Below, in pieces: positions 31,451 through 58,797 of a DNA stretch of 64,000 bases (position 1 is its first letter; the number at the start of each line of letters is the position of its first letter). A model generated the notes under the pieces. That model did no database searches, was not told where the DNA came from, and saw only the letters and a list, made by a program, of their open reading frames with translations. A program made the position numbers and the translations under genes. Source of the stretch: Sabellastarte sp. h YS-2021 (lineage: Eukaryota; Annelida; Polychaeta; Sabellida; Sabellidae); NCBI GenBank assembly GCA_964017235.1, contig OZ024929.1, positions 17,791,464 to 17,855,463 of the forward strand, read 5' to 3'.

Positions 31451-31459
31451 ATGAGAACA

Positions 31460-33340: not shown

Positions 33341-33342
33341 CA

Positions 33343-35493: not shown

Positions 35494-35841
35494 TTACAAA
35501 TATATAATCCAGCAATATTTTACTGCCACCAGGCCTAACACTGCCTTCATGAAATATTTAAGACAAATAAAATATCAAATGCTGGTAGTTGTACACCCAC
35601 AGAGTGATGAAAACATGAGGCTACGATGGGCTTTCTAACAATATTTTACAAGTATATAATCCAGCAATATTTTATTGTACAAATATTTTTGCCGCAACCC
35701 TCTGACAGCACCTCCGGAGGCACCCATTTCTTTACATGTATGATGCAATAGGTGTATTTTACAACCGTAATCCATCGAATCTAGATTCGTCAGATCAACA
35801 GATTTACTTGTGTTGCGGCTTGAATCTGAATCTGGATTCAT

Positions 35842-35879
35842 AATCCGTTGATCTACCTCTCGAGGTAGATCAACGGATT
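35842..35879. other. Near-perfect 38-bp palindrome
   Basis: AATCCGTTGATCTACCTC is followed at once by its complement around a central CTCG. It could extrude as a hairpin. It sits just left of the next hairpin-ended element and may be an element tip, but I cannot assign it. Confidence 0.6.
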
Positions 35880-35959
35880 CAAATTGCTTGGATTACCCAT
35901 AATTCTTCAAAAAATAATGGCGGCAACATGTGACAGGAAATTTTAACATTTGGCAAATT

Positions 35960-38821: not shown

Positions 38822-38880
38822 TTTTTTTTGTACTGTACATGTGATATTATAATATTACGGTATATTACTGCATCTTAATT

Positions 38881-40019
38881 GTATCCACCAGATAACATCC
38901 GGTGGATACTATGGATTTGACTTTATTCCGCCTATGCCGCCGCCGCAGAGTGTAGAGAGATTTCACCGTTACTGCTCTAAAAAAATTATAGCTAACCTTC
39001 TCAAATTTGCAGGATATATTTATAACCATAAAATCATGCCTGGGAATATTTTTGGCCTCATTTTGAAAAACAAGATGGCCACCAGGGACGTTTATTTGAC
39101 TTTAAAAAAGGACTTTTGTTGGCCTTCTAGAGGAAAGGGTATTATAGGTAGAGATCTCAAATTCACAGGATATGTTCCTCATTATAAAATCTTGACTGGG
39201 AATATTTTTGACCTCATTTTGAAAAACAAGATGGCCACCACAGGCGTTTGTTTGTCAGTCATGAAAAGTGCTTATATCTCTCTTATTATTGGTCCTAGAG
39301 GTTTAGGATGGTAAACCAACCTATAGGAAATCATGGGCTAGGAATCTTTTTGTGTGGTCAGATTTGACCTTGGACCCCTCCTTCAAGGTCAAACGTGCAT
39401 AGCCAAACTTAAAAGTGCTTATAACTCGCTTATTATTGGTCTTAGAGGTTTAGGATGGTTAACCAACATGTAGGGAATCTTCTGGTGTGGTCGGATTTAA
39501 CCTTGGGCCCCTCCTTTAAGGTCAAACGAGCATACCCAAACTTAAAAGTGCTTATAACTCGCTTATTATTGGTCCTCGAGGTTTGAGATGGTAAACCAAC
39601 GTGTAGGAAATCATGGGCTGGGAATTTTCTAGTGTGGTCAGATTTGACCTTGGGCCCCTCCTTCAAGGTCAAACGAGCATAGCCAAACTTAAAAGTGCTT
39701 ATAACTTGCTTATTATTGGTCCTTGAGGTTTGGGATGGTAAACTAACGTGTAGGAAATCATGGGCTGGGAATTTTCTGGTGTGGTTGGATTTGAACTTGG
39801 GCCCTCCTTCAAGGTCAAACGAGAATAGTAAACTCATTTATTATTGATCCTAGAGGTTTGCAATGTGAAACCAACTTGCAGAATATCATGGGCTGGGAAT
39901 CTTCTGATGTCAGAAGCTTTGGCCCATGCTTCAAGGTGAAACGATGATTCACTAGCTTTGGTGACTTATCTTTCTGATGGATACAAATTTGCATCGGTTC
40001 TCCGATGCGTAGGTCTAGT
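38881..40019 (-). mobile_element. Inverted copy of the 147-bp-repeat hairpin-ended element
   Basis: The 3' hairpin GTATCCACC..GGTGGATAC is at 38881-38909, the unique block with the CTTGTTTTTCAAAATGAGG complement at 39050-39260, about 4.5 units of 147 bp at 39290-39960, and the 5' tip hairpin GCATCGG-TTCT-CCGATGC at 39991-40008. It abuts the 5' side of the transposase-like gene. Confidence 0.75.
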
Positions 40020-40159
40020 GTATTTCAATTGACAGTATTTTCCTACAGGTACCCACAAGGTTCTTATTGCTTGTTTTTCATGTGCATCTCATTAACATTT
40101 ACTCACTAAAACTGACTAAAACAGTTGTTTATTTTAATGTTTTTAACATTTAGATTCAG

Positions 40160-42871
40160 GTGTGCAAGATATGTGGCTTTTCATCGAACCCAAGGAAGTT
40201 GTACCAACATTATCGTCTGGACCATTATAATACTTCAACATCGGTATTACCATGCTTCTTTCATGATTGCAGCATCACATTCAGGAATCTATCATCTTTG
40301 TCAACTCATATATCCCGCCATCATAGAAACGCTGCAAATGATAAATACTTGGTTACCTCGGCAAATATTGTAGAAGATAAATTGCTAAAATGTGTCATTT
40401 GTAATACAATAGTACAAGATACAATAGCTTTGATATCTCATTTAAGAATCCACCTTAGAGATCATGTTGCTGTGTCCTGTCCTTTTCAGGGATGTGATTT
40501 TCAAACTAGTAATGTCAAAACTTTTAATTCACATATAAATGTAAAACACAATTTCATATTTGAAGAGGTTATAAAAGAAAATTATTTACTAAACTCTGGA
40601 AGAAATTTAGAGAACAGACAAGTCAATACTCCTTTCACTGTCCCTGAATCTTTCACTCCTAATGCAGATGACAATGATGATACAAATGATGAAAATATTG
40701 TTGAAAAGTATGACCAAAGATTGTACAAGAAATGTGCATTGTTTTTATTAGAGTTACAGACTGTCTCAAAAGTACCTGTGCGGACAATAGAGAAAATATT
40801 AGAAGGAATCAAGGATATTCATAGACTATCTGAATCTCTGTTAGTTGACATTGTAAAATCAGTGACAGAAAAACATAAAATTGATTCATGTGTGGCAACA
40901 GAAATTTCAGAGAAGCTTTTAAATGAATATCCTCTCATAAGATACATCAGTAAGAGTCAAGAATGCGGCAGCACTGACTTATCAAATAATATAAAAAGGA
41001 AAAAGTATTTTCAGCAATCTTTGCCATATGTAGATTTTATTGAGTGTGACTTAGGTTACGTTGATGGGAAGAAACGCACATTTGTGTATATTCCAATATT
41101 ACAGGTTCTAAGTAAGCTTCTTGAAAAAAATGACATCTTAAAGTTCATATTAGATACTGAGGCAGTGCCAGAAGGGGTTTACAAATCATACAAAGATGGT
41201 CTTTATTTTAAAAGTAATACATTCTTGCAAAATAAACATTGCCCAGTCTTGATAGGCCTCTACACTGATGATTTTGAATTGTGCAATCCTTTGGGTACCA
41301 GTAGAAAAATACACAAGTTGACTGCTTTTTACTGGATTATTGTAAATATTCCTCAGAAGTGTCGTTCCAAGTTATCTATGATTCAGACTGCAATATTATG
41401 CAAAAGAAGTGATCTGAACTACTTTGGACCTGATATAGTTCTTGAAAGGTTTTTAAGAGATATATCAATTCTGGAAACAAATGGTGTATTTGTGGAATCT
41501 TTGCAAGATGTTCTTTATGGAACATTAGTATATTGTAGTGCTGATAATTTAGGGGCTGCATATATTGGTGGCTTTACTGAGTGTTTTAGCCAGACTGTCA
41601 AAAAATATTGTAGATTTTGTGAATCCGAGTCTTCAGAAATTGCACGAAAATACATACCAGCAAAAACATTTAAGTTGAGGAAAAAATGTGACTATCATGA
41701 AAAGGTATCACTTGTTCAGGCCAATTCATCTTTGGCAAGCACTTTGGGAATTAAAAGAGAAAGTCCATTGCATAACTATGTTGAACATTTTCATATTTTG
41801 GAAGGTTTACCCCCTGATGTGAGTCATGACCTACTAGAGGGAATAGTCCCTTTTGAAATAGCAGTCTTTCTGCAGTACTTTATTGGGCACAAATACTTTA
41901 CATTAGAATACTTGAACAGATGCATACAGGATTTTCCTTTCAAAAGAAGTGAAAAAGTAAATCAGCCCAAGCCAATTCCAAGCAGGCTTTCTGAGAAAAA
42001 AACAGTTGGTGGCAATGCAACTGAAAACCGAACTCTCCTGAATTTTTTGCCTTTAATGATTGCTGAAAGAGTTGCTGAAGATGACCCTGTTTGGAGATTA
42101 TTACTAAAACTGAGAGATATTCTTCTGATTGCCCTAGCACCTGTGGTATCTGATAGTGACATAGATTTGCTGGAAACTTTAATTGAAGATCATTTAAATG
42201 AGTTTAAGACTATTTTTCCAAATGAAAACCTCAAGCCTAAGCATCATTTTATTCAACACTACCCACAACAAATGAAAGCTGTGGGCCCATTGGTATTATG
42301 TTGTACAATTAGATTTGAAAGTAAACACAAGTATTTCAAATCAATAATGCAAAAGACAAAAAACTTCAAAAATGTTTGTAAATCTTTAGGAGAAAGCTGT
42401 CAGCTTGAACAGGCATATCAGCTTGCGGGTCATCAGATGTGTCAGGCTGAAATTGAGCTGAATGACACATACTTGTTAACATCTGTTGAAGTTTCAAAGC
42501 ATGAACAGGAATATCTGTCTCAACATCTTGAAACTCCCTTACATACAGTTCGTGCAACAAATAAAGTGGTAATCTATGGATTAGACTACAAACTGGAACA
42601 GTTTTTGGTGAAGAAACATGATTTGGTTCCTCAGTTTAGTCAAATTTGTAAAATAGTTGTTGACACAGGAATAATGTTTTTAGTTGAAGATTTTGAAACT
42701 TTCATTGAAGAACATGTGGCTATGTATTCTGTTTCACCCAAAAATAATTTGGAACTCTTAAGACTAGATGAATGTTATGACTTTCATCCACTGAATGCGT
42801 ATGACTTTGATGACAAATTGGTGATATCACTAAAGCACTGGATTACAATGCCAGTAGCTCAGAAAATGTAG
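40160..42871 (+). CDS. C2H2 zinc-finger protein with RNase-H-fold transposase-like region
   Basis: One exon is open for 903 codons. Four C2H2 fingers fill the first 130 residues (the first is C2, C5, H17, H22). A large region then resembles CACTA/Plavaka-type transposases: LYTDDFELCNPLG (D370, D371), FYWIIVNIPQKCRSKL, YCSADNLGAAYIGGF (D462), CRFC and VSHDLLEGIVPFE (D557, E560). I propose D370/D371, D462 and D557/E560 as acidic triad candidates. The C-terminal part has FPNENLKPKHHFIQHYP and RFESKHKYFK, which I recognise from uncharacterised multicopy proteins of fish and cnidarians. In this frame a TAG lies two codons upstream, and 40157-40159 is a good splice acceptor (CAG). The true start is therefore in an unseen upstream exon, unless GTG at 40160 is used. 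No internal stop occurs in 2.7 kb, which argues for recent activity or selection. DNA cutting activity is inferred only. Confidence 0.82.
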   Translation: MCKICGFSSNPRKLYQHYRLDHYNTSTSVLPCFFHDCSITFRNLSSLSTHISRHHRNAANDKYLVTSANIVEDKLLKCVICNTIVQDTIALISHLRIHLRDHVAVSCPFQGCDFQTSNVKTFNSHINVKHNFIFEEVIKENYLLNSGRNLENRQVNTPFTVPESFTPNADDNDDTNDENIVEKYDQRLYKKCALFLLELQTVSKVPVRTIEKILEGIKDIHRLSESLLVDIVKSVTEKHKIDSCVATEISEKLLNEYPLIRYISKSQECGSTDLSNNIKRKKYFQQSLPYVDFIECDLGYVDGKKRTFVYIPILQVLSKLLEKNDILKFILDTEAVPEGVYKSYKDGLYFKSNTFLQNKHCPVLIGLYTDDFELCNPLGTSRKIHKLTAFYWIIVNIPQKCRSKLSMIQTAILCKRSDLNYFGPDIVLERFLRDISILETNGVFVESLQDVLYGTLVYCSADNLGAAYIGGFTECFSQTVKKYCRFCESESSEIARKYIPAKTFKLRKKCDYHEKVSLVQANSSLASTLGIKRESPLHNYVEHFHILEGLPPDVSHDLLEGIVPFEIAVFLQYFIGHKYFTLEYLNRCIQDFPFKRSEKVNQPKPIPSRLSEKKTVGGNATENRTLLNFLPLMIAERVAEDDPVWRLLLKLRDILLIALAPVVSDSDIDLLETLIEDHLNEFKTIFPNENLKPKHHFIQHYPQQMKAVGPLVLCCTIRFESKHKYFKSIMQKTKNFKNVCKSLGESCQLEQAYQLAGHQMCQAEIELNDTYLLTSVEVSKHEQEYLSQHLETPLHTVRATNKVVIYGLDYKLEQFLVKKHDLVPQFSQICKIVVDTGIMFLVEDFETFIEEHVAMYSVSPKNNLELLRLDECYDFHPLNAYDFDDKLVISLKHWITMPVAQKM

Positions 42872-42976
42872 ACTTCTTTTAAGTGTTGTGATATATATGT
42901 AACTGCTACAATTTACTGTAGTCACAAGTAACTGTAAATTTCATGATTACCAATAATTGAAAATGTTCTTTCGCAG

Positions 42977-43234
42977 ACAATTGGCTTGTCCTCCACAGTT
43001 CATTACACAGACTCTGGTGACCACCCAATTTTGAAGGAAAGAGGCATATTGCAGGAGCTTCTAGAGATAAACCAAATTAAAAGAGACTTGCTTCGTGAGA
43101 AACAGGTGACACTGATAACACAGTACCATAACATTCCAACTGCCGAAGCAACGTGGAACACTAAACACAAGGACATATTGGTTATCCTTTCTGAAAGAAG
43201 AACAGAATTGCTTTCACAAATGCAAAAGTTACAG
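42977..43234 (+). CDS. Candidate downstream exon encoding a charged helical segment
   Basis: The segment is open for 86 codons, preceded by a good acceptor (TTCTTTCGCAG at 42966-42976) and followed by a good donor (CAG, then GTAAAG, at 43235). It encodes DHPILKERGILQELLEINQI, EKQVTLITQYHNIPTAEATW and LSERRTELLSQMQKLQ, probably coiled coil. A weak donor within the preceding exon (ATGCCA, then GTAGCT, at 42854) would join it in frame, replacing the last five residues. The next acceptor (TTTCTTGCAG, 43551-43560) adds C-Q-G-L and a stop. It could be an alternative C-terminus of the finger/transposase-like protein or part of another transcript. Function is unknown. Confidence 0.5.
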
Positions 43235-43485
43235 GTAAAGAACTTTTTTTTCACATCCAGACACAATTGGTTTGAAATTAACACCTTTCATTGTGCATAT
43301 GCCCTATTTTATGAAATAGTCATAACACAAAAAATTAGAAACTACATAGTGAATTTTGTTCATTCTGATCAATGTACCATAGCTTGGTGGGAGTTGCACT
43401 CAAATCAATACCCTTATCTTTTGGACCTGTGCTAAGACTGCTGTTCTACTATTACCAGTAGATAATGGTTAGGCTCTCAACAATG

Positions 43486-43491
43486 AATAAA
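43486..43491 (+). terminator. Possible polyadenylation signal
   Basis: AATAAA lies in the region after the candidate 42977-43234 exon and before its proposed last acceptor. It would serve transcripts that read through the donor at 43235. It is weak evidence in AT-rich DNA. Confidence 0.3.
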
Positions 43492-43689
43492 TAATAGTCT
43501 TTTAAGGTAAGCATGTTTAGGGATACTAATTTCTAAACTGATTTATTTTGTTTCTTGCAGTGTCAAGGTCTGTGAAGTTTTGTTGTTTAAGGCAATTAGG
43601 CAACTTTGAAAGAAAGTTTTGACAGCATTTTATCCTGATATGTTACAGTGTTGTGGTGCCACTTGATATTATTTTGACCAAAGCGATAT

Positions 43690-44830
43690 ACTTTTTACCC
43701 CACAGCCCTTAAGGGCTGTCGGGGTATTGTTTTCACCCATGGTGTCAGGATGGGGGGGGGTGGTGGGAAAAAGTTTGTCCGGGCTTTATCTCAGAAACCG
43801 TAGGGTGTAGGAAGTTGATACTTGGTAGGGACATTGGTTAGGGGGTGTAGGTGTGCAACGTCATTGTGTGACCTTGATTTGACCTTGCCGTAGTGACCTT
43901 GAGTTTGAAAATCTTGTCCGGGCTGTATCTCGGAAAGCGTAAGGTGTAGGAAGTTAATACTTGGTAGGGACATTGGTTAGGGGGTGTAGTTGTGCAACGT
44001 CATGGTGTGACCTTGATTTGACCTTTGACCTTGCTGTAGTGACCTTGACCTATAAAATCTTGTCCGGGCTATTTCTCGGAAAGCGTAAGGTGTAGGAAGT
44101 TGATACTTGGTAGGGACATTGGTTAGGGGGTGTAGGTGTGCAACGTCATGGTGTGACCTTGATTTGACCTTTGGCCTTGCTGTAGTGTCCTTGACCTATA
44201 AAATCTTGTGTGGGCTAGATCTCGGAAACTGTAAGGTGTAGGAAGTTGATACTTGGTAGGGACATTGGTTAGGGGGTGTAGGTGTGCATTATCATGGTGT
44301 GACCTTGATTTGACCTTGTCGTAGTGACCTTCACCTTTAAAATCTTGTTGGACCTTTGTGTCTGTCTTTTGATGCAGATTAAGCACTGTTAAAGCCATAT
44401 TAGAATTTATTAAGAATTTTACTTTCATAACTTCCCATTGTAAGAGATAGAATTTCAAGTGAGCCACAGATTTTGCTCCAACACCACACATAAGCATTCA
44501 TTAAATGTATTACCACTTCTGTATGCATAGTAATATTCAAACCATCTAAACCATAATTCGGCCATGCAGATGTAGATAAAGAGTGTTGAATTTTAGTTTA
44601 CTGATAAATGCTGTCATCTTGTTATTGAATTATCTTGTTTTAATACTTCATCTTTATATACATTATCTTTCTTTTAAACATTATTTCTCCATTTAAACAT
44701 TGTTTGGACCTTTATATAACTGACAGTGCTCTCAAAGTATCCTGAAGTTTGTACTGGTACAGTACTTCTATATCTCATGGTGTTGAAAATATTTCCCTAT
44801 AGGCTGTGGGGTACGGGTATCTCTGATACT
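43690..44830 (+). repeat. Palindrome-led tandem element, 144-bp units
   Basis: It begins CCACAGCCCTTAAGGGCTGT (a perfect CAGCCCTTAAGGGCTG palindrome) and repeats GTAGGAAGTTGATACTTGGT at 43806, 43946, 44094 and 44240, with GTGTGACCTTGATTTGACC. Diverged copies start at about 46015 and 55317, each also at a CAGCC hairpin. Probably another hairpin-ended non-autonomous family; frames inside are artefacts. Confidence 0.75.
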
Positions 44831-45088
44831 ATTTTTTTTTCAACAAGCCTTCTTCTCTTATAATACTCTTGTACATGGATTGGACACTTGCAATACTGAA
44901 ATCTGCGAGAGTTACAATTTGGAATCTTGATATTTTTTATATATTTTAAGCTTTTGCCTTGCCCATTATTTGTGTTCAATGTTGAAGGGATTTTTAAAAT
45001 TTTGTATAGTAATTAAGTAAGAAACACTTATAAAGGGCTGAATTGATGTAAACATCCTCTAAGGCGCTGATGTGCAAAAAGGGATAGT

Positions 45089-45615
45089 TCAGTTCCAAAA
45101 CAAGGTTCGTTGCCATATTAGCGTCCGAAAGGGGAGAAAAGCTAAGGTGGAAGATAAGCTAATCTGAAAAGATGTTTTCACCTGTTTTCTGAAACCGGAA
45201 ATGCTTTCTATGATACCAATGGCTTGAGGAAGCTTGTTCCACTCTATGGGAGTCCCTACTATGAAGCTGCGCAGCCCTGAGCATTTATTTGGTTTAGACG
45301 AGGAAATATATAGGCGATTGCTCCGTGTGAGATCACTCCTCCTTATTAGAGAGGAAAGATATGGAGATTGGCTGAAATGTATTGCTTTATATGTAAGGAG
45401 ATTGTATTTGAACAATATACGGTAATGAATGGGGAGCCAGTGTCCTTTGTGCAGGAAGGGTGTGACGTAACAATATTTATTTAGCTTGCATATCATACGA
45501 CATAAGACATTCTGTAGCCTGCTAGTATATGCCTTTTTGTGTTGTAAAGCAGTGAGTTACAGTAATCCAGGTGACAGCTAACCAAGGCATTTGCGACCTT
45601 TACAGCTGTTTAATG
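45089..45615 (-). pseudogene. LINE reverse transcriptase C-terminal fragment (CR1/L2-like)
   Basis: On the minus strand, SCHLDYCNSLLYNTK (about 45540-45590), then HWLPIHYRILFKYNLLTYKA, SRLYISSSKPN and FIVGTPIEWNKLPQAI are the conserved C-terminal part of CR1/L2-type RTs. The frame is open from 45496 to 45089, but the catalytic RT and endonuclease are absent, so this is a 5'-truncated copy. It sits between the two core genes, in or near an intron or spacer. Confidence 0.88.
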
Positions 45616-45919
45616 ATTTAATCAGGGCTGTGACGGGTGCTGAAAAACGGCATAGAATACTCGCCCTCTGAAAACTGGCCCGAATTCGAGTAACCGCGAG
45701 ATTTAGTACCTAAAATTAGAAGTCTTCTGTAAACAAATAGTCGGTTCCGGAAACGAAACTTTTGAAGAAAAACGTCTTCTATTTGAACATATATTATAGA
45801 ATATGGAGTAAATTGTATGTTTTCAAGCGAAAATAACAACTTTATTTGATATTATGAGACGGAAATGCTGAAATGTAGCATTTTTTACAGAAACGTTTGA
45901 TTACGTGGGTGATAATACA

Positions 45920-45960
45920 ATATCTCGCATCGGTTTTCCAATGCGCTAGATCTAGTTTAT
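45920..45960 (-). repeat. Solo tip of the 147-bp-repeat element family
   Basis: GCATCGGTTTTCCAATGCGC followed by TAGATCTAG matches the 5' tip hairpin of the 15192 and 38881 elements, with no tandem core next to it. Confidence 0.45.
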
Positions 45961-46223
45961 TTTCGGGACCAGAATTCCAACTGTTCTTTAGATCATTGTG
46001 CTCTTTTTATATCGCTGCCCTTAAAGGCTGTCCAGGTATTGTTTCAGCCCATTGTGTCTGGTGGGGCTGGCTGACATATAATAAATATCTTTTCCAGGTT
46101 GTTTCTCAGAAACTGCAAGGTGTAGGATCCCCATATGTTGTAATGTACAATTAACTAGGTACTGAACTTCTGCATTTGACTATAAGCAGTAAACAGATAT
46201 TTCTTTCAACATTATTTTTCAGC

Positions 46224-46505
46224 ATGACAGAGTGTGACAGTTCAACACCACAGGCTACTTTACACAGATCACAAAGTGCAGAAACTATAGCATACAATAC
46301 CTGTAATATTTGTGAGTCTGGACACGTCGTATCTAATGTATGCCAATGTGATGATCATGTTCTTCTAGAAAATAATATTGTTTTCTTAAAATGCTTCGAA
46401 TGTCAGCGCTTATTTCATTTACAGTGCATCAGTGAGAAAATAGATCTTGATAAGTTGCTGACAGTGGTTGAAACTGGCTATTTATGCAGTTTGTGCCAAA
46501 CCTAG
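46224..46505 (+). CDS. PHD-finger ORF immediately upstream of, and in frame with, the SAMD3-like ORF
   Basis: A 93-residue ORF starts at an ATG one base after a strong acceptor (ACATTATTTTTCAG, ending 46222). It has a C4HC3 PHD-type pattern: CNIC, then KCFEC, four residues to H (CQRLFH), two to C, then CSLC. PHD fingers bind histone tails or act as protein-interaction modules. It ends in TAG at 46503-46505, but the same frame continues for 14 sense codons into the ATG of the next ORF. The transcript is therefore either bicistronic or one PHD-PB1-SAMD3-like protein broken by a single stop. A loop of 25 residues between the second and third zinc ligands is long for a PHD finger. Confidence 0.7.
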   Translation: MTECDSSTPQATLHRSQSAETIAYNTCNICESGHVVSNVCQCDDHVLLENNIVFLKCFECQRLFHLQCISEKIDLDKLLTVVETGYLCSLCQT

Positions 46506-46547
46506 GGACTATATATAGGTGATAGCCAACTCAAAGGTGGGGAGACA

Positions 46548-47426
46548 ATGGCAGAAAAATATTGTATAAGCGCTGAAGCAAAACAACATGGTGTTTTTGC
46601 TAGGTGTGTTGGGGAATCTACCTGTGATTTGAATGTAAGGGTTGTTCTCAACTCGTCAGATATACGAAAAGTAAAACTTAAGATAGATGAACACACATCC
46701 CTGGATTCAGTCAAGAACTCCGTGAAGGACTCTGTAAATGTTAAAGGTAACTTTGTTCTACAATATTTGGACAAAAAATTTGGTGATTACTGTAATGTAT
46801 CCCATGTTAAAGAAATTGAAAACTTTAGCACACTGAAGTTGGTGCAGAAAGAAGAGGTAACTGATGCTGCACCTACAAGTCATAATGCAAATTTGCCCAA
46901 TTCGACTGAAGGTGTCACTGCCAGTGTTAGCCATGAGAAATGGCCAGAGTCGTTCCCTTTGCCCAATTTTGATGAAGTTGACCCACCATTGGCTGCTTAC
47001 TTGAACAAGAATGGTGGAGAAGGTAAAGTAAATCTAAGTGATGTTCACAGACGCAAAGTAATTAACTGCTTGGCTAACAGTATTGCAAGATTCACAGTGT
47101 ATCCAAAGTATAAAGATATTGATCATGTTTGTTTGAAGTTGATCACAAAGTTCCCTGCTCTACGAGATGGTGGACCAAGTGGATTCTCCTCCTGGTCAGT
47201 AGCCCTCAGGTATAAAATCTGCAATTTGAGGAAAACGTTGAAAGGTGTTTCTGAAGAAGTTGATGTAAACAAGCGTAAGAACAAGGATGATCCACCAAAT
47301 AAAGGGATTAAAAAACAAAGGAGGGGAATTACACGACAGTTTGTTGCTGAAGAAAGTGTAGAAGAAGGAGACCTCCAGAAGGAAATGCAAGAGGAGATGA
47401 AAAAATGGAGACCTGATCTGCTAAGG
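46548..47426 (+). CDS. SAMD3-like gene, exon 1: PB1-like domain and SAMD3-family domain
   Basis: First exon (293 codons) of a five-exon gene with exons 46548-47426, 51712-51822, 54094-54207, 54916-55014 and 56275-56580, giving 502 residues. Residues about 27-105 look like a PB1/ubiquitin-like domain (NVRVVLNSSDIRKVKLKI, GNFVLQYLDKKFGDYCNV). Residues 130-225 match the conserved region of SAMD3-like proteins (EKWPESFPLPNFDEV, NSIARFTVYPKYKDIDHVC, SWSVALRYKICNLRKTL). A basic stretch (KRKNKDDPPNKGIKKQRR) may be a nuclear signal. No SAM domain is seen, unlike vertebrate SAMD3. The exon ends CTAAGG, then GTAAGT, a consensus donor. ATG 46548 opens the frame after the TAG at 46503. The biochemical role of the family is unknown to me. 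Confidence 0.88.
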
Positions 47427-47559
47427 GTAAGTTGAGCATAGCTAACCCCTTAAAGTTATATCTGAAGGTACTGATAAAAATACTTAAGAAAAAAATCCGT
47501 TTGGGTCACACAAAGGCAATTTCTTTAAAATTAAAATATGTCCTAGAAGTAGTAATTAA

Positions 47560-50500
47560 GAGGCCCGTCTGGGACGCTTCTTTGTTTTCACCTAAGTTCG
47601 ACTGATTACCGCCGCAGGTTTATGGTCTCCCTTAAATAACTTCTTGATCTTTCAAATTTTTCTTTCCTTCTCATCTTTCTTTAAAACTATAGGGACGGGA
47701 AAAATTTGTGGGATACTTTGCGGAGATCTTAAGCTTTACTAAAGGTAACCTTAAGCATTTTTCATAAACACCCCATCATTGTGTTTTGGAAAAAAACACA
47801 CCAGTGCTATAAAATTTATCAGGTACATTCTGCACCAAATTTTGAAGGTCGGAAAGGATTTTCTGATGAATTGGACCATATATGTCTCAATGAGAGGCGT
47901 TTCATTTTCGTAAATTTTTTTAAAATGGGTACTGGGTCTGTATCTCAAAAATATTCGGCATTTTGTTGGATAACTTATTCAGCTACTTTTTCATAATCTT
48001 TCACATGCCAAAGTTTTAGCCCTGTATCTGCAATCTTAAGGTCACCTTAATGTCAATAAAGGGGGTTTAGCCCTCCAGTTCACTTAGTTTTTCACTTTTT
48101 TCAACCAAACTTGGCACATATATTTAGATTTGCCAAAGGAATATCCTGACTTTATGGTGACCTTAAACTCAAAGCCCTATGGCCTGTTTAAACTCATGAA
48201 ATTGGAATAAAATCCTCTGGCTCCTTTCTTTTTCCATTTTTTTATATCTAAATTATCACTGGTATTAAAATAGATCTAAATAATACTTATGGTCACCTTA
48301 AACTCAATATGAATGGAGTTGTAGCCACCTTAAAGAGAAATAAGGGGGTTTTCAGCCACCAACTATCTTATTGTTCAACTCACCGGAGTTAAACTTTGCA
48401 GACCTATAAAGGATGGCAAAAGGAACACTGTTATTTTATGGTCAACATATTATTCTCTACATTGGCCACATTATAACAAAATACCAAAACATAAATTTCA
48501 CTTACAGAAGAATGCATACTTTATCCTTAAGCCAAAAACAAGCCTTTACCTAAACTTGGCAAGCTTTAATGTATTGTTCATACAAAAGCACACAAAATAT
48601 CACTGGTTAAAACAGATACACACCAGCAGTAAAGAAATAGGAGATTTATTTTAAACATTATACTATCACTTGTAAAATAACAAACACGTCACAAGATTAT
48701 GAAAATCAAACTGACAATACTTTTTCCCCACACTATTCCAGTGAAAGGAGTATAAAAACACAAAAGCTTTTCATGATACGAGTGCTTGGATTGAACAACC
48801 TACATATGGTCTCCATTATAAAGAAACTTAATCCCCTGTTTCAAGTAAGTCTAATCAGAATGGGACCTTTGTCTGTCTTTTAAGGTAATCTTATAGTCAC
48901 ACAGAAGCCATCAAACATCTCGAACTACCATAGTCTCCTACAAAACATATAAAAATTTACTTGTAGGATTTGAAAATTATTTACACAAAATGTGAAAGGA
49001 AGACTGATTTCCCTTAAAAACTAATCACATACTTCCAGATGTTTAAGGTTAATTTTATCTGTCTGCATCAGATGACGAGGCTAGCTGAACCAACAATTAC
49101 TTCCCAAATACTTTCATACGTTTTAGAAGAAGTTTATCTGTCTGCATCAGATGACAAGTTTAACTGAACCAGCAGTTGATATTAATATCTTGCATATGTG
49201 TACAACACCACCAGTAGTTTCCCTTGTGGGAGTATCAGGCCTGCATCTTTCTTAATTATTTTTTTATAAATTTTTCATGCACTAAATCACTTATAACTTG
49301 AAAAGTATTACATATAGAGCATTTTGTTAAATGTGTTTTTTATGTAGTTTTGTGTCGGTTATAACATAGTAAAATTTCAGAACTGTAGACCCTTACATAA
49401 TTAAGTAATTGCTGTAAAACCTAAGCATTCTACTGCAGTAAGTAATCTTTTTCTAAACTGGATTTTATTTCAGTGAGGGGAGTGATGAAGAGATAGTCTT
49501 TTTCTGCTCAGATCTGCCACCTCCCCACTCCCCCCACTCAAATAAAAATGCATATGACAAAAGAATTTCCGTCTGTGGAGGATGGGGGGAAGTGAGATGG
49601 GGAAGTGAGATTATGTGTGTGCCAAATTAATCTGTAAGTTGTTTTTTCTTGCAAGCAATAACTCTGAAGCAAATTCATTAACTTTTGAACAAAACGTCTT
49701 AAGCACTTTGGTTCACTGGATTTGATGAGTGTTTTTGTTAAGTTTTTAGTTGAAGCACAATCAGTAAATATAAATAATAGTTCTTAAGCATATTAGCCCA
49801 CTGCATTTAATTAGTGTTTTATACTTAAGTCTCATGCTAGTGACATTTGTAACAGAAACGTCTGTGGTCAATGTATCCCTTACACTTGAGACCTCTTCTC
49901 TGAGAACATTCCCAAAGAATGTAGGACATCCAGAATTCGGGGAAAAATGGCTCCTGGAAAAAATGCCTCCTAGAAAAAAGATCTGGAAAAAATGCCTCCT
50001 ACAAAAAATGCCTCCTGAGAAAGAAATGTTATTTCAACTTGTAAACATGTTATACAATGAAAACTATAACGTACAATATCAAAAACATGTTAATTTCAAA
50101 TATGTTTAGTCAAAACCAGAATATACAATATCACAAAGTACAAATTTTTACAAATATCTTCTTGAAAGGGTATCCCTTCAGCTGTACTCAGTACCAGTTT
50201 AAAACCAGGATTTGTGGCCTTTATGGCTTAGAATGTGCATTCTTATCAAATTACAACATAGGTTATCCCCTCTGTATGGAGCTGATTGCAGTTAGATGCA
50301 CTAGGAGGGGCAGAAATATACTTAAAGAAAAACATGGAAACTGTCATGGTGGAAACTAGGAATGAGCAGCCAGCCAAAAGAGTGAGAAGAACCAGCAAAA
50401 CCTTGCAACAGAAACTTTACAAGAGAAACTTAAGTACCTTTCTACAGCTAAGCAAAATGGGTAAAAGACTGTAAATTTTTGACAGACATTGGCAACTATA

Positions 50501-50882
50501 AGACTCAAGTGGAAAAATGAAAATGCCTCTGAAGTTGTAATGTGAACCTGTAGTATTATAATACTTGAAAGAACTTTTTTTCTTAGGAGGCATTTTTTTC
50601 TAGTCACAAAATATTCAGGAGGCATACATGTATTTTCTAGGAGGCATTTTTTCCAGGAGGCATTTTTTCCGCATACCAGACATACATTCTTTTGAGAAGT
50701 AAATTTCACACCTACAATTTCTCTTCTGCCAAGCTTTAATTTGTTAAATATAGTAACATACACAATGCAATAAAGTTCACATTTTCTATTCCTTATGATG
50801 CATATATTGACATCTTTTACAGATTACTTCGCACTTTTTCATCAGGGCCGCTTCGTTTTTGTCAGCAAAACCTTTTTTCTAG
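47560..50882 (+). mobile_element. Helitron-like element in intron 1 of the SAMD3-like gene
   Basis: The left end (TTAAGAGGCCCGTCTGGGAC, GCTTCTTTGTTTTCACC, TATGGTCTCCCTT) and right end (TTTTGTCAGCAAAA hairpin, then CCTTTTTTCTAG) match the termini of the 33343-35493 element. The interior differs and has no long frame. It holds an inverted pair of GGAGGCATTTTTTC blocks (49930-50035 and 50575-50680). Gene splicing appears unaffected because the insertion is wholly intronic. Confidence 0.55.
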
Positions 50883-50984
50883 TTGTAGTACAATTTAGCA
50901 TTTATAAATGTCCAAATTAATGAAAACATCCTCTAATGTGCTGTGGAAATTCTGCTAAGGTTGATGTATTTCATTACATTTATT

Positions 50985-51215
50985 TATTTGGGGTTTTACT
51001 TCCCTTTTAACACTGTACAGGTCATATCACGACGGGTAGTTTGAACGGCAGAGGAAACCAGTACATAGAGTTTGTTAGGGTTCTGTACTGTAAACTGCCG
51101 ACCAACGGCAAGCAACTACCAGCTTTCCCACTTGAGACCATGGCGGGGATCGAACCCCAGCCTCAGAGGTGGGAGGCGAGAGTGTTGCCACTCTGCCACC
51201 GTGGCCCCTGTATTT
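50985..51215 (-). mobile_element. tRNA-derived SINE
   Basis: On the minus strand the head reads GGGGCCACGGTGGCAGAGTG (A box) and GGGGTTCGATCCCCGCCATG (B box). The body follows, ending at the left in the complement of TTTGGGGTTTTACTTCCC and TCATATCACGACGGG. The body resembles the conserved core of molluscan and other lophotrochozoan SINEs as I remember it. It is intronic, about 500 bp before exon 2 of the SAMD3-like gene. Confidence 0.8.
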
Positions 51216-51711
51216 CATTAGAACCTCTGGATATTCAAGTGGATTCAACAATATACCATAATTATCCTGCATGGGTACCTAATATGACAAAGTAGTTTAT
51301 TAGACCCATGAAAAGGTCAATGGGGTATAAAATAAGGAAGTTTTATCACAAGGATCAGGTCTTTCTGATAACAACTTCTTTCATCTGGAATTTCATCTAG
51401 TCAAGTGAGGTTCCCCCTTACAAATTAAAAGGATTCAGTCATTTTTGCTTTTTTTAAATTGCTTATGTTTTATTTTAACCATTTAAAATTAGTCATTTAT
51501 TCTCAGCTTTCAAGATATCCCTGATAGAAGCATTCTCTGTTGCAACATTGATGTGTTATGGTAATATTTTGGTCAGAAATGCTAGCGTCTGTTGTACTGG
51601 TATATATAAAGGCCAGTAGCCACATATTTTTCCATTTCAATAGTTAAAACATTTGAAACACCAAAAAAATTCTAGCATGTTATTTGAACTCACAATTTTG
51701 CATTAATATAG

Positions 51712-51822
51712 GTCAAGAGACTAATGGATGCAACATGGTCGAAAAGATGGAAGTTCATTAATTCTGATCCCCCAGTATGTGCTATACTACAGCAATGGCC
51801 AGCTTATAGACTCTCAAGTTTG
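51712..51822 (+). CDS. SAMD3-like gene, exon 2
   Basis: 37 codons, acceptor ATATAG before 51712 and donor GTAAAG at 51823, phase 0 at both sides. It encodes VKRLMDATWSKRWKFINSD and then CAILQQWPAYRLSSL. In SAMD3-like proteins the equivalent helix region follows directly on the segment encoded by exon 1, which supports the join. Confidence 0.85.
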
Positions 51823-54093
51823 GTAAAGCCTAATATTAATATAATACTTTCAGTAAATTTCTGTATCTGTCAAAAAGTATAGAGCTTCATGTGTTACAGG
51901 CGCATAACCCAGGGTGAATAACACAGTAAAAGACTAAACTATACTATTTATTGTACTAAAGTTTTCTTAGAATGCCGTACAGTATTTTTTCAGTATGAGA
52001 GAAGGAATTAAGTTCCAAAGAGGTTGTGTTACTGGTTATGACCTCAAAAACAGTTAATAACTTTGTTTCGGTAAGATTGGTAAGATCTAAAAGCATCAGT
52101 GAGAGACATGAAAGTGTTGAGATAAAGACTTGGTGTTGTAAAATTAATGCCTGTAATAACTAAGGCTGTGATAGATTACCCGGTTACTCAAAAACAATCC
52201 AAATTCTTTAAGAAAACGAGTACAAACTGGCGAAGCGAGTAACCCAAAAAATATTAAATATAGCATAAATCAATGAAATACTTGGATAAACCTAAGTATT
52301 CTGTCAGATTTCTTTAACTGACATTAGTTTTTCACCTAATTTTCCTTATTTATACTTATATTTAACAATTTTGTGTAATGGTTTGTTTACATCATCTGCT
52401 ATGTTTGCTTCACCGCTACTTCCACTGGGTGACAACTAAAAATGGTTACCCTAATTCGGATTGGTTCTTTCAAGGCGAATACCAGGTATCGTTTTTCTAA
52501 CAAAGTCACAGCCTTAGTAATAACTGATAGACCTATTTAAAGTTTAAACTTTTGCAAGAATGTGCTATAACATTATGCTATGGTGACCTTAGAAGGCCAA
52601 GCTTCTTCATGTCACCCATCTGGCCATGGCATTAATGTTAAAGGTAACAATGAAAACAGATAGCATAAAATGCCATTGAGAGTGATCAGGTGCTGTCCCC
52701 CTTTTGTCTAGAATAAGTACAAGATATTTGTTCAAGGAAAAAAATTGTTAAGACTTTATCTGGATTGGATTCATCTTTGTAAAAGACCGAGCTGCAGTTA
52801 AACTCAACCATATATGAAAATATGATTGATTGCAATTCTCTTGCCCCTCTGCTTTGGAGATATCAGTTAGAAAAATATGTGAACACTTGCTCACTGACAT
52901 TTAATTTTGGGTGAATTTTTGCAACAAGGATTTTGAAAAACTCAACTATATTGTACTGTACTTTTAGCCATTGCGGATTTCTTAGAATTTGTTGAAATCT
53001 AGGGATGGATCAACAACCGAAGTGTCAAGATATCAAGTGCACTTTATTGAAATTCTGTGATGGGCTTTACAACTGCCATCCCACTGGTCTGGATATATAA
53101 TGAAAGGAAAACATAAAATATTGGAAACAAAACTCCAAAAGAAACTTATACCCCTTTTTTGGCATTTGCAGCCTTTTATAGCAATTTTGTGGTAAATAAG
53201 GTACTTTAGAATCTTCATCTGGCTTGTCAAGATATATAATGGAAGGAAAATTTAAAATAATGGAAAAAACCCAGAAATATGACAAAATTAGACACTTTTA
53301 TTCCAAACTTTTGTGTATTTCAATAGTTGATTGTGATTATGTTTAGAGGAAACATCCATGTTTTTGCTTCAAGAATTTTCTTTCTCAATTATATTGGGGC
53401 GTACTAAAATGTGACTCCCTTAATCGGAATGGTTTTAAATTGGCAACCATCCGATAGCACATTTTTGAAACCAACCCATCCCCATTAAAATCTTTATCAA
53501 AGTTTGATAGGTAAATATCTTTGGTGTCTTTTGGGTTCCCTGTGTTGTATTTACTATTCTAATCCTATTCCTTCTGCTTTAGTTAAGCTTTGTTAGCTAA
53601 TGCAAATGTCCCTTCATGGAGTTTTGACAAACATATTTGTCACTACAGTGCATGTGTTTGGCAGGCATTGTGTTGGAATACTCGAGTTTCATGACGAGTC
53701 AATTTGAATCAAACTCAAGTCAATTACAATACTGAATACCTTGTGTATATATGCACTAGTATGCTTCCTTTCACAATAAAATCTTTATCAACAAAATTTA
53801 TCATATTTACTTTCAAACTAAGGATTAACATCCCAATATTTTGACAAGTAAGATGATTGGTTTTGATTGGTTGTTTTATCAGGTAATGTATATGGAGAGA
53901 ATTCATTGGTTTAGAGTCATAATAGGAAAACTTGAAGGAAATATTAAGTAAACGAGACAAATTGGGCTTTTATTGCATCTTTGTACACAGGCAAGTGGTT
54001 TATGTATGTATTTTTCCAATTGTTTTATTTATGCTTTTAAAGAACTCAAATTTGCAATAAGCCAAACTCACATTCACCAATTTATATCTTCAG
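51823..54093 (+). other. Intron 2 of the SAMD3-like gene
   Basis: 2.27 kb of AT-rich sequence with GT and AG ends. No coding frame or repeat family stands out. Confidence 0.7.
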
Positions 54094-54207
54094 CTCTATG
54101 AAGATTTTTATCGCCTTACAAAAGTACGGATGGAAGTTGCATTCAAGAAAGGACTGGACATGGTCCATCAAAAAATTGCTACTGAATCTGATGACACTGC
54201 TGTTACT
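54094..54207 (+). CDS. SAMD3-like gene, exon 3
   Basis: 38 codons, acceptor TATCTTCAG and donor GTAAGA, phase 0. It encodes LYEDFYRLTKVRMEVAFKKG and then LDMVHQKI, matching the family segment EF-x-RITT-x3-ESTF that follows the WPAL segment. Confidence 0.85.
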
Positions 54208-54915
54208 GTAAGATATAAACATGTTATAGTTGATGTTTCATTGATTTGTACTAGACAACAATATATAAAGCATATTGAGTGACTTCATGCTTAGAATATT
54301 TTTGATAATACTGTACAGACATCACTATTGAATGTAAAAATATTTCAATATTGAGGTTACATTTTTGTCTCCAAACCATGGCAAATCCAGGATACTGAAA
54401 ACTTTGTGTTGTACATAGTATATACCCAATCAAAGAGATATACCCACAGAAAGTAGAAAGGAGTTCATGAAAGCAAAATGTGGGATTTCCGAAATAACTT
54501 AAAATTTAAAAAAACAGATAGAAGTTTATAATTTCTCTAGATTTAGGGTTTCTTTACAATATTTGAAGATAATACTGATACATGCATCTGTTATGATCTG
54601 CACATCAATATTGTCCATGCTATCCTGATACATATTGACAATATTGATAAACAGTATACCCACTAGCTAGAACCTCTTTTGTGAAGTACCATTATCCCAC
54701 AAACTTAGGTTGAGAAAAGGATTGATCTCCTTGAGGTTTTGGGTGTATAAATTCAGTCCATAACTTGACACTCATATTTAGAAATGAAACAAAATGGGAA
54801 ATATTTTAGATGTCTAACTTGTTATTGTTTAATATCTATAAGAATAAATGTGTCTTAATTTCATAAAACCACTTGTTGAGTTGTACTATTTCACCTATGT
54901 ATTATTTTTTTCCAG

Positions 54916-55014
54916 GATAAGGACAGAGAAGAACTTCTAAAAATTCTTCCAGATGTTTTAGGATTGAGAAGTTGTAAGGGTAGTGAAAAGCCTCATATAA
55001 TAAAAAAATTCAAG
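54916..55014 (+). CDS. SAMD3-like gene, exon 4
   Basis: 33 codons, acceptor TTTTTTCCAG and donor GTATGT, phase 0. It encodes DKDREELLKILPDVLGLRSC and then KPHIIKKFK. This is the most variable part of the family, so the join rests mainly on the splice signals and the kept frame. Confidence 0.8.
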
Positions 55015-55316
55015 GTATGTGTTTGCTATGGAATTATTCATTTAAAGACATAAACATCTTTGTTTCACATTTACTGATGGTAAGTCGTTTGGCTGTGTGG
55101 ATATTGATATTGAATGTAAAGATATTTCAAAATCGGCTGATATCACTTAATGTTCTGAATCCGGCATGCTGTGAACATTTTGTTCAAACATAACCCCAGG
55201 AAGTGAAATTTTCCAAAACAAAACATGGCAATTTTCATCAAAAAAGCATTGAAAACTACAAATAAGCTAGATAATTTTTTTAAGAATTTAGGCTTTACTT
55301 CAAATATTTGCAGTTT

Positions 55317-55760
55317 TTACCCAACAGCCATTGAGGCTCTGTGGGTTTTGTTTTCACCTATGGTGTCTGGATGGTTGGGCTGGGCTGGATGGTTTTTGGC
55401 TGGGCTGTTTCTCAGAAATCGTAAAGTGTAAGAAGTTGATACTTGGTAGACACATTATTTGGGGGTGTAGGTGTGCAACGTCATGGAGTGACCTTGATTT
55501 GACTTTTGCTTTAGTGACCTTGACCCTAAAAATCATGTCTGGGCCATATCTCAAAACTGTAAAATGGAGGAAGTTGACACTTATAGGGATGTCAGTTTGG
55601 CGAGGTGTAGTTGTGCAATGTCATAGTTTGGCTTTGATGTGACCTTGCTATAGTAACATTGACCTTGAAAATCTTGTCGGCCATATCTCAGAAATTGTAA
55701 GGTGTGCAAGGTTGATATGTGGTAGGTTTTAGGTATGCTAATTCATAGTGTGACCTTTTA
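55317..55760 (+). repeat. Diverged copy of the 43.7-kb tandem element in intron 4
   Basis: It starts ACCCAACAGCCATTGAGGCT, then repeats AAGTTGATACTTGGTAGAC and GTGTGCAACGTCATGG-type blocks about three times, more diverged than the 43690 copy. Confidence 0.7.
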
Positions 55761-56274
55761 TCTTGGCTGTACCAAAGTGTGTGCACGTGTCATATTTAAG
55801 ATATAGTTCTCTCAGGACAAACATACATGGTTTGCTGTTACTGATTATTTATGCAACTTTACTAAATTGTGCTATTTCCATTGACAGCAATACTTCAATC
55901 ACTAAATTTTACAGCTTCATAATTTCTACTTTAATTATTTATGCTGCTACCTTGCTATTTAATTGTCCTGTTTTGATATGGTAGCTTTACATACATTTTT
56001 TTCTCTCTTAGTCATTACTTTCTCTACTATTTACATACATGTATTTATATTGTATCACTTCTGTATCTCATGGCATTTACTGTAGATTACCAGGGTACTG
56101 TTAAATACAGGTCCCTCCCATGCTATTTATTTGTGTGTAATCATTGTACTTGAAGTAAGAAAACAAACAGTATTCATCAGAGAAGTCTTATACTTGCTAA
56201 CTTAATAAATTGCAGCGTAGTAGTGTTTACTTGATACTGAAGTATTGTAACAACTTCCATCCTTTGTTTCACAG

Positions 56275-56580
56275 GAGGGATCATGTGAAGAAGACATAAT
56301 TCAAACAGAGGATCTAATCTTCATTGCAGCAGTTGACACTGATGATGTTGGAGAAGACCCTCCAACCTACAGTATTGTTGTTGAAAAGGAAATTGTAAAA
56401 GAAGAATTGTTAGACTTGCAACAAGCAGTCATGTTTGCCATGGCATTAATTTGGGTCTGCAACATAAAATACCCAAAGCCCATCTGTATTTGGGAATTTT
56501 TGGAAAAGATAGTGTTACAAATTGACCCTGGAAATCTCTCACCAAAACTTGCCCTATTAAAGGCAAAATATAATTTGTAA
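56275..56580 (+). CDS. SAMD3-like gene, last exon with conserved C-terminus
   Basis: 101 codons and a TAA, acceptor TTTGTTTCACAG before 56275. It encodes DLIFIAAVDTDDVGEDP, YSIVVEKEIVKEELLDLQQA, VMFAMALIWVCNIKYPKP and ISPKL-type ending NLSPKLALLKAKYNL. The block AMALIWVCNIKYPKP plus the terminal SPK-x2-LK is the hallmark C-terminus of SAMD3-like proteins (usually AL-x-YALNL-x-YPK). With the upstream exons it completes an unbroken 502-residue protein. Confidence 0.9.
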   Translation, partial: EGSCEEDIIQTEDLIFIAAVDTDDVGEDPPTYSIVVEKEIVKEELLDLQQAVMFAMALIWVCNIKYPKPICIWEFLEKIVLQIDPGNLSPKLALLKAKYNL

Positions 56581-56660
56581 AGAAATTATCAATACTGGTC
56601 AGTGCATTATGACCTTTCACTTAAATCTCATGCCATATTCCCACTTGGGTTATTGAACAC

Positions 56661-56666
56661 AATAAA
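56661..56666 (+). terminator. Polyadenylation signal of the SAMD3-like gene
   Basis: AATAAA lies 80 bp after the TAA stop, at normal distance for a short 3' UTR. Confidence 0.6.
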
Positions 56667-56756
56667 TATTTGAAAGTTAGCTAGAACTGTAATTTTCTCA
56701 GAAGTACATTGTTTTCACAGATATTAATGTATGTTATGATTAATGTGGCCTTTGAG

Positions 56757-56920
56757 ATAATTCAAGCAGAGGATGTAATTTTTATTGCAGCAGTTGATAC
56801 TGATTATGTTGGAAAAGATATTGTTGCAAATTAAGTAAAGACATTTTTAATACTGGTCAGTACATTATTACCTTTTCACTTGACCCTTAATGCCATATTC
56901 CTACCTAGGTTAAAAAAGTT
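56757..56920 (+). pseudogene. Degenerate partial duplicate of the last exon and 3' UTR
   Basis: 56762-56825 repeats the start of the last exon (CAGAGGATGTAATTTTTATT against CAGAGGATCTAATCTTCATT). It then jumps over about 190 bp to the stop-codon region and 3' UTR (AATACTGGTCAGTACATTAT against AATACTGGTCAGTGCATTAT; ATGCCATATTCCTAC against ATGCCATATTCCCAC). It is a tandem copy with an internal deletion and cannot encode the domain. Confidence 0.85.
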
Positions 56921-58600
56921 GGATCTTTGGTAATTTTCTTAGATGTACTGTTTTTTTAGTAAACATTAATGTATGATGTGATTAGCTAGTATATGGTTTG
57001 ATTGACTATGTCATTAATACATTGTTTATTTCGTTCAACAGTTTGACAGGGTCGGGGAGAGCAACCTGTGTATAATGCAAGAGTATTTATTTTAAAGGCA
57101 CTTGTTGGACGTGTATTGGCAAAAGTTAACCAATATTCATGTCTTTAGATGATACATTTATAGAGTTTGTGCTTATTGAAAATGGCACTTATAATTTCAT
57201 TACATTTGTGCATCTGTTTTATGGTACTGGGTATATTTAGAACAATATTTTTAAGACGAGACTGTAGTCTTTATTCTTTGTTTTGAGTATCAATCAGTTT
57301 TTTTTTGGTGAACTTAACACTGTTGTTTCACCAAATAGATATACATGAGGAAAAAGTATTTCATGTTTATGCTTCCTCCAGTCTTGGGTTTTTTATCTTC
57401 GTTGTTTCCTGTTTGGCACTTTTTAAGGCAAAGGGTAATTCATGTAGTATTTGTAAGGATCTACTCTGCATTCATTTATTTAGAAATTGAGTTAAGATGT
57501 TGAAAAGTGCTCCATACTTAAATTTATTACCATAATTTGTGATACACCCAGCCTGGATTCATTATAGTGATTAACTGCAGCAATGTGTAAAGTATGTAAC
57601 ACTGCAAGACAAGGTGTGTTCACCTTGTGGGCAAGGTGATGATATTGTGTACAGTTTTCATATGGTGGTGTTTAGTTCCACATCGTCCTGATGGAGACTT
57701 CTTGGTTATCACTGACACAATAATTCAACAGTGCAATAATCTTTAAAGGTGGAGATTATGACTTAAAACAGGTTAAATACTTATTCTGTTTGGAACCTTT
57801 TTGGGTAAGTTATTTGATGATTTCTGTTTATATTATGCATACTGGAATTTATTTTTTCCTTTATCTCTGATGGGACTATTTTATTTGAAGTTATCATACA
57901 GTAATCAAGGGTATATTTGCAAAAGTGTGCTAAGTGCACCGGTATTGTAATTAATTTTTTGCCCACTTCTATGTTCAAAGCATTTGTATGGTTCAGTCTG
58001 TAATTATCTTTTTTAAAAGCATACATATTGTGAAAATTAATGACAAAATAAATGTTTAATTTTCCTCAAAATGGTTTTCTCACTGTTTCTTTACAGGTTT
58101 GACTGCACATTTGCAAGTTTGCAATATAAAAAAATCATCATGTCAGTCTTTCATAGTCTAAAGGTTGGCAAGAAATTTATAAAGGTCTTATACTTTAAAG
58201 TTAGAGTATCATATATTTGAAATGTATACATAACAGAAAGTCTCAATAGTTGACCCATTTAGAAATGTTAAGTTCGCATGACTTCAATTATTTTAGTTGT
58301 GGGAACACATCCATATTCTCACCAAGATAATTGGGTAAGTTGTATTTTACCCAGTAAAGATGGTAATGTTAACTAACTTTTTTTGGGTCATCTAAAATGG
58401 GATACCCAAATGTTTTGGTAATGTCAACTTAAATTTTTTATGGTCAACAAATACATATTTACCAAGAAATTTTGATTTCTCTGACACAATTTAAGAGGTA
58501 CAGATAATGTTATGCACAAGCAAAGTTAGGTAATGAAAACATAAAAAATATTGATAACTGTTGAAGAAAGTTGTTAGTTTCTGGTAACACATCCATTCTC
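56921..58600. other. No recognisable gene
   Basis: AT-rich downstream flank; scattered frames such as 57305-57490 show no motif. No inverted terminus that matches the region just before 40160 was found by eye. Confidence 0.4.
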
Positions 58601-58639
58601 ACCAATTTTTTTTAGTTGCAATTACAAGAATAATTTTAC

Positions 58640-58797
58640 AGTGTAGTCTCAGCCAAAGCTGAGACTGAGACCTTTTGTGAAATCCATTAAGGCTGAGTCC
58701 ATGGGCTCAAATAAAATATTCCAATAATTTGAGACAAAAGTCTCAAGTTTGAGTCTGAGACCGGGCTAAGACCTTTCGTGAAATCCGCCCCAGGGCT
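58640..58797 (-). repeat. GGTCTCAG-rich repeat terminus, inverted relative to 30648
   Basis: Its right end reads, on the minus strand, GGGGCGGATTTCACGAAAGG, matching AGGGGCGGATTTCATTAAAG at 30648, followed by CTGAGAC-rich sequence in both. It abuts the LINE relic at 58798. Confidence 0.6.

Follow-up and report, generated by a model that had tools for sequence, protein, structure and literature searches.

A giant CMCT transposon carrying PHD-finger and SAMD3-like genes in the annelid Sabellastarte

We analyzed a window of 64,000 nucleotides from Sabellastarte sp. h YS-2021 (assembly GCA_964017235.1, contig OZ024929.1, forward-strand positions 17,791,464 to 17,855,463) and identified, in this order on one strand, a transposase gene, an open reading frame (ORF) encoding a PHD finger, and a PB1/SAMD3-like gene. 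We put the probability that these three genes are the content of one giant mobile DNA element at roughly 90%. A preliminary description of positions 40160–56580 had suggested a multi-gene mobile element without seeing terminal inverted repeats (TIRs) or a target-site duplication; both exist, and both lie beyond the span it covered (Table 1). Its suggestion is borne out by these TIRs and TA duplications, by a near-identical second copy, and by a sister family in the same genome. The element is a giant CMCT transposon, real and recently mobile, whose accessory gene set is kept in two families of this genome and partly in fish.

Boundaries and copies of the element

A DNA search of the whole genome (1.786 Gb, 647 contigs; match counts are lower bounds) gave 40 scored matches: the window itself, a match on contig C1 at 100% rounded identity, a weaker match on contig C7, and 37 places sharing a 168-base match at 73% identity. 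The C1 match is a second copy of the element, 34,580 bp long, with ends and duplication as in the window copy. Both copies start with CACTGTAAAATATATTTG and finish with ATTTTACAGTG, have TIRs of 11 bp, and are flanked by TA on either side. Their alignment of 26,967 positions contains 46 differences (0.17%), and the difference in length is mostly due to tandem arrays and one insertion of 5,049 bp in C1. This insertion, seen in the C1 copy only (L009–L014), is located opposite window position 37691. The coding exons are intact in both copies; the transposases differ by two amino acids, and the other genes encode identical products.

The C1 copy sits in a tandem repeat. Joining its flanks through a single TA gives a sequence whose junction is spanned by alignments to units of this repeat and related units. 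Ten junction-spanning alignments were printed, four to units beside the element and six to related units on contig C14 (L055); five of the ten are gapless and two of the other five are gapped near the junction. No empty site of the window copy was found in the fetched sequence. The flanks of the window copy at 30644–31065 and 58644–58791 resemble the halves of one short inverted-end repeat (GGGGCGGATTTCAT...), into which the transposon seems to have inserted; an unbroken copy of this repeat was not found in the fetched sequence.

Table 1. Features of the element in the window (positions in the 64,000-nucleotide stretch)
Feature	Position	Strand	Remarks
Whole element	31066..58643	+	27,578 bp; similarity to the C1 copy ends at most 3 bases from either boundary
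Left target-site duplication TA	31064..31065		Empty-site alignments of the C1 copy back a 2-bp duplication
5' TIR CACTGTAAAAT	31066..31076	+	Identical in the C1 copy
3' TIR ATTTTACAGTG	58633..58643	+	
Right target-site duplication TA	58644..58645		
5' subterminal tandem array, unit ~152 bp	31468..33321	+	Same place in the sister family (140-bp unit); length varies between copies
Second tandem array, period ~157 bp	33762..35393		
Transposase exon, 905 codons, no stop	40154..42871	+	Residues: C2H2 fingers ~4–131, predicted RAG1-like core ~187–768, predicted BAH-like domain ~766–891
Catalytic D372	41267..41269	+	Invariant in 48 aligned sequences
Catalytic D464	41543..41545	+	Invariant in 48 aligned sequences
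Catalytic E722	42317..42319	+	Invariant in 48 aligned sequences
PHD-finger ORF, ATG to stop	46224..46505	+	Open frame from 46155
PB1/SAMD3-like exon 1	46548..47426	+	
PB1/SAMD3-like exon 2	51712..51822	+	
PB1/SAMD3-like exon 3	54094..54207	+	
PB1/SAMD3-like exon 4	54916..55014	+	
PB1/SAMD3-like exon 5, including stop	56275..56580	+	

Inverted pairs of CACCAATTTCGAAAG in the window looked TIR-like at first and were rejected, as they belong to a tandem-repeat element seen at 8 places. At 27286–28219 and 60305–60482 there are tandem units that contain CACCAATTTCGAAAG and the hairpins GGCGGGTTG..CAACCCGCC; they flank the transposon on both sides and are unrelated to its ends. Within the element, a frame on the reverse strand (45089–45556) resembles, by eye, a decayed reverse-transcriptase fragment.

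The transposase, PHD and SAMD3-like genes

The large exon of the transposase gene is uninterrupted, as had been described, and its DDE-type candidates proved to be real: D372, D464, and E722 are invariant in 48 aligned sequences and present in the window protein. Among the same 48 sequences C486-x2-C489 and H702 are also invariant and H697/H698 nearly so, with the spacing H698-x3-H702, and the DDE-C(2)C-H(3)H signature is intact in the window protein. The four C2H2 fingers of the preliminary description can be read by eye; Pfam recognizes a single stretch, just below its cut-off (E = 3e-5). A match to DUF4218, which we take to be a domain known from CACTA transposases, is likewise below the cut-off (E = 6e-5). 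The catalytic core is predicted to be RAG1-like, and the model shows the RNase H fold whose absence, in the preliminary description, would have refuted its mobile-element reading; a BAH-like domain is predicted in the C-terminal part. A sequence search of solved structures returned nothing beyond two zinc-finger chains (E = 0.24–0.25), and in viral contigs we obtained 163 pattern matches and no relatives by tblastn. The start of the large exon contains no in-frame ATG in the window family, so that translation must begin in an upstream exon or at a GTG; the sister-family transposase has an ATG. A third transposase relative, 44–48% identical in two pieces, was noticed at C7:118616648–118616907 (L003). 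Between the transposase and the PHD ORF lies an open frame with an exon-like stretch (42947–43435) that has no counterpart in the sister family, where the gap between the two genes is ~50 bp.

The PHD ORF lies on the strand of the transposase, as stated previously. No other among the 2125 six-frame ORFs of the window shows the C4HC3 zinc-ligand pattern, which is also present in the PHD ORF of the sister family. The Pfam PHD family matches both just below the cut-off (7e-4 in the window, 7e-5 in the sister family). The PHD ORF and the PB1 ORF have the same reading frame in each of the two families, with a single stop between them (46503–46548 in the window). They may be read from one bicistronic transcript; by chance alone, a shared frame is expected in one third of cases each time.

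The five exons of the PB1/SAMD3-like gene are joined in phase 0 throughout, with intact splice sites, and encode a stop-free product of 502 amino acids. When a profile of five fish proteins was run against the 2125 window ORFs, only three exon ORFs of this gene matched (1.2e-34, 3.9e-10, and 0.004), exons 3 and 4 giving no score individually. The spliced product matched the profile over residues 30–492 (5e-60, an E-value for a single target), a similarity that places it with the SAMD3-like family. Among the five fish models only P0101 carries a SAM-type name ('Sterile alpha motif domain-conta...'), and the spliced protein matches no Pfam family up to E = 1, hence no SAM domain. Its own exon 1 was the sole match in a protein database search (7063 candidates), and NCBIfam gave no match at 0.01 for any of the four window proteins. 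The intact five-exon structure and the SAMD3-like assignment made earlier therefore stand, and the PB1 label is kept with reserve: a Pfam match in the sister family (4.5e-4, below the cut-off), weak matches in two fish models, and a low-confidence structure model hint that the N-terminal domain may be PB1-like. Foldseek matches of this accessory model were taken solely as support for a PB1/ubiquitin-like topology. Just 3' of the gene, at 56720–56960, exon 5 and its 3' flank are partially repeated in decayed form, as seen by eye.

A sister family and relatives in fish

We found a sister family at no fewer than 37 places in the same genome, with a transposase 40% identical to that of the window family and the same order of transposase, PHD ORF, and PB1/SAMD3-like exons. 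We retrieved 40 kb at each of five of the 37 places and read these five in full; right ends were taken from 20 of the 32 others. Sister elements start with CACTGTAAAAC and finish with ...CAGTTTTACAGTG. Three copies with both ends and TA on each side are 20,787, 20,071, and 16,911 bp long; for the other two (C18b and C14) the left end lies beyond the reach of the fetched sequence. Four fetched copies are 99.78–99.97% identical to the fifth over 14.3–15.7 kb. Of the 20 further right ends, 17 stop at TTTTACAGTG with differing flanks, one is truncated, one runs into N, and one gave no match. The next two bases at the 17 right flanks are TA (n = 9), TG (n = 4), and TT, AA, AG, and CA (n = 1 each). 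Between the two families the proteins are 34% identical for exon 1 (E = 8e-46) and 31% for the PHD ORF (E = 5e-14); exon 4 was not recognized in the sister family. The sister transposase is open in four of the five fetched copies, the C14 copy having one stop, and the PHD ORF and the pieces of exons 1, 2, and 5 are stop-free or identical to those of C11a in all five.

Both families have a tandem array ~400–500 bp inside the 5' end, with near-identical stretches between the 152- and 140-bp units; at the same setting, the coding DNA of the two families aligns over a single stretch of 171 bases. A 17-base core of the array occurs 9–21 times, always in one orientation, in each of the five complete copies, and one array unit searched against 159,189 flank bases gave a single weak match of 37 bases. 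Two observations weigh against reading the array as a conserved part of the element. A 26-base stretch just outside it (30022–30047) is 88% complementary to array units, perhaps as the relic of a related element, and the two families also share other repeats of the genome; exchange by recombination is a possible source of the shared array. Words of 8–10 bases occurring at least twice at each end were absent from the window element, and only A+T-rich words of this kind were found in the sister family.

In six fish gene models (from Coilia, Mugilogobius, Astyanax, Nothobranchius, Hoplias, and Merluccius) the transposase and a SAMD3-like part are fused, in the order seen in the window and on one strand. 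Because these are automatic gene models, the fusions stand for neighboring genes on one strand and not necessarily for one protein. The transposase profile was built without any of the six; the second SAMD3-like profile was built from five of them and the window protein, and its matches to these are by construction. The SAMD3-like part continues 4 of 112 matches (P0058, P0101, P0109, and P0112, the last weak on the SAMD3-like side at 1.9e-6). A search with residues 775–1289 of P0058, covering proteins of 709–2256 residues (7987 candidates scored), found five proteins including the query. Four of these have this transposase upstream (P0058, P0109, P0114, and P0116; in P0114 mainly the finger part) and P0115 is without it. 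The linkage that the preliminary description had proposed to look for is thus present: homologs are multicopy, linked, and in the same order in both Sabellastarte families, and the transposase and SAMD3-like part are joined in the six fish models. A relative of the transposase in an ant has a CIDE-N domain above the cut-off, and weak matches in accessory parts were seen in killifish (SAM-like, 0.015) and hake (CIDE-N, 0.049). In the Merluccius model P0116, residues ~1590–2055, behind a Harbinger nuclease, resemble a second, divergent accessory part with a weak CIDE-N match. In searches of the open-licence PMC literature, no paper listed showed, in its title or abstract opening, a link of SAMD3 with a transposon, a transposase, or domestication.

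Classification, alternative explanations and proposed mechanism

According to PMC12730594, CMCT transposons are marked by C(2)C and H(3-4)H, CA..TG termini, and target duplications of 2–5 bp. The window element has D/D/E residues with C(2)C and H(3-4)H between the second D and E, termini CACTG...CAGTG, and TA duplicated in all five complete copies, and its predicted transposase structure has an RNase H/RAG1-like fold. CACTA/EnSpm elements (maize En/Spm with TnpD and TnpA; animal SmTRC1) likewise combine a DDE transposase bearing C(2)C and H(3-4)H with short duplications and termini of the CAC..GTG type (PMC12730594, in part), and the window element has such termini with a duplication in their 2–3 bp range. 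It differs from them in its N-terminal C2H2 fingers, predicted BAH-like domain, and PHD ORF, and its accessory protein belongs to the PB1/SAMD3-like family and is not a recognized TnpA. Up to E = 1 the window protein gave no Pfam match to Transposase_21 (tnp2), which 8 of 48 relatives match at 0.01. RAG and ProtoRAG transposons make 5-bp target duplications. The window element, with a 2-bp duplication and ~12% identity, differs from RAG1/RAG2, ProtoRAG (BbRAGL), and Transib. Pfam Plavaka, named for a fungal CMCT lineage, is matched by 2 of the 48 aligned relatives (E ≤ 0.01) and not by the window protein up to E = 1. ESTA elements duplicate TA, as do the five complete copies here, whereas other dinucleotides also occur among the 17 right flanks. 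Both Plavaka and ESTA are described in fungi, and the part of PMC12730594 consulted mentions no PB1/SAMD3-like or PHD gene. SmTRC1 has a 2-bp duplication in 7 of 14 copies and termini that begin with CCC, and Spm encodes a second protein beside its transposase, En/Spm requiring both TnpA and TnpD (PMC1636069, in part). Giant EnSpm and KDZ elements of brown and red algae are generally >10 kb and contain extra genes as well as nested insertions (PMC12477816, in part). They differ in their hosts, in size (EnSpm up to 15.2 kb, KDZ up to 30.3 kb), and in accessory genes that mostly lack an assigned function; the word PHD is absent from the main text of that paper.

The 27–35 kb common to two contigs could in principle be a segmental duplication and not the product of transposition. 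We consider this extremely improbable, given that the shared stretch is bounded by TIRs of the CMCT type and 2-bp duplications and that the C1 flanks close without the element. That a transposase gene and a member of a separate, multicopy family of host genes became neighbors by chance, an alternative raised by the preliminary description, would agree with the multicopy state of both families in fish (as given in that description; the transposase has many fish entries), yet has next to no probability: the genes lie within shared boundaries, their common order is enclosed by ends of one kind in two families and found on a single strand in six fish models, and four of the five long proteins sharing the fish SAMD3-like region, query included, have the transposase upstream. 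Open genes among decayed repeats had also suggested domestication, with the host retaining a locus that derives from a transposon. With two copies on different contigs only 0.17% apart, both with TIRs and TA duplications and one with an empty site, domestication is unsupported and very unlikely.

A further alternative accepts the element as described and regards the PHD and SAMD3-like genes as passengers, captured from the host and without a role in transposition. Additional genes without an explanation have been described in giant transposons of algae (PMC12477816, in part), and no PHD part was seen between the transposase and the SAMD3-like part of fish model P0116. However, neutral cargo is expected to decay or be lost, and both genes have stayed open and kept their order in two families despite a transposase identity of only 40%; the SAMD3-like part also travels with the transposase in the fish models. 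We regard passenger genes as unlikely.

The anatomy of the element implies that it moves by a CMCT transposase, with cuts at the CACTG ends and duplication of two bases. Binding and cutting of these ends would very probably be the work of the C2H2 fingers and the core, with insertion mostly at TA or TG and a 2-bp stagger. By analogy with En/Spm, which needs TnpA as well as TnpD, the SAMD3-like protein is the natural candidate for a second protein. At odds only slightly short of even, it would be a counterpart of maize TnpA that binds element DNA, perhaps at the 5' subterminal array, multimerizes through its PB1-like domain, and pairs the ends or controls the promoter. PB1, CIDE-N, and SAM domains can form head-to-tail chains, which is the basis for proposing multimerization. 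Histone tails are often bound by BAH and PHD domains. With odds somewhat below even, the BAH-like domain, together with the separate PHD protein, would recognize histone marks and guide integration or expression, a role comparable to the help that RAG1 receives from the PHD of RAG2. A broader and rather doubtful proposal concerns an old lineage of animal transposons with a RAG1 fold, which would function as a chromatin-guided machine of several proteins. In such a lineage the BAH-like and PHD parts would read histone marks as RAG2 does for RAG1, and an accessory protein with an exchangeable head-to-tail polymerizing domain (PB1-like here, CIDE-N in the ant, perhaps SAM-like in killifish) would assemble the ends on the conserved 5' array. 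The accessory gene would also be the ancestor of the multicopy 'SAMD3-like' genes in fish and possibly of SAMD3 itself in vertebrates.

Since the sister family occupies at least 37 places and four fetched copies are 99.8–99.97% identical to the fifth, transposition is directly testable. Two protein families that databases list as uncharacterized or, in fish, under SAM names acquire a mobile origin through this element, and reports of their expansion or association with traits may need re-reading. The single-nucleotide polymorphisms reported in a carp Samd3 (PMC8945855, in part) would be an example if that gene is of the SAMD3-like kind. The element also adds an animal lineage to the CMCT transposons, one in which predicted chromatin-reader domains stand beside a RAG1-like transposase, and this bears on the origin of the cooperation between RAG1 and RAG2.

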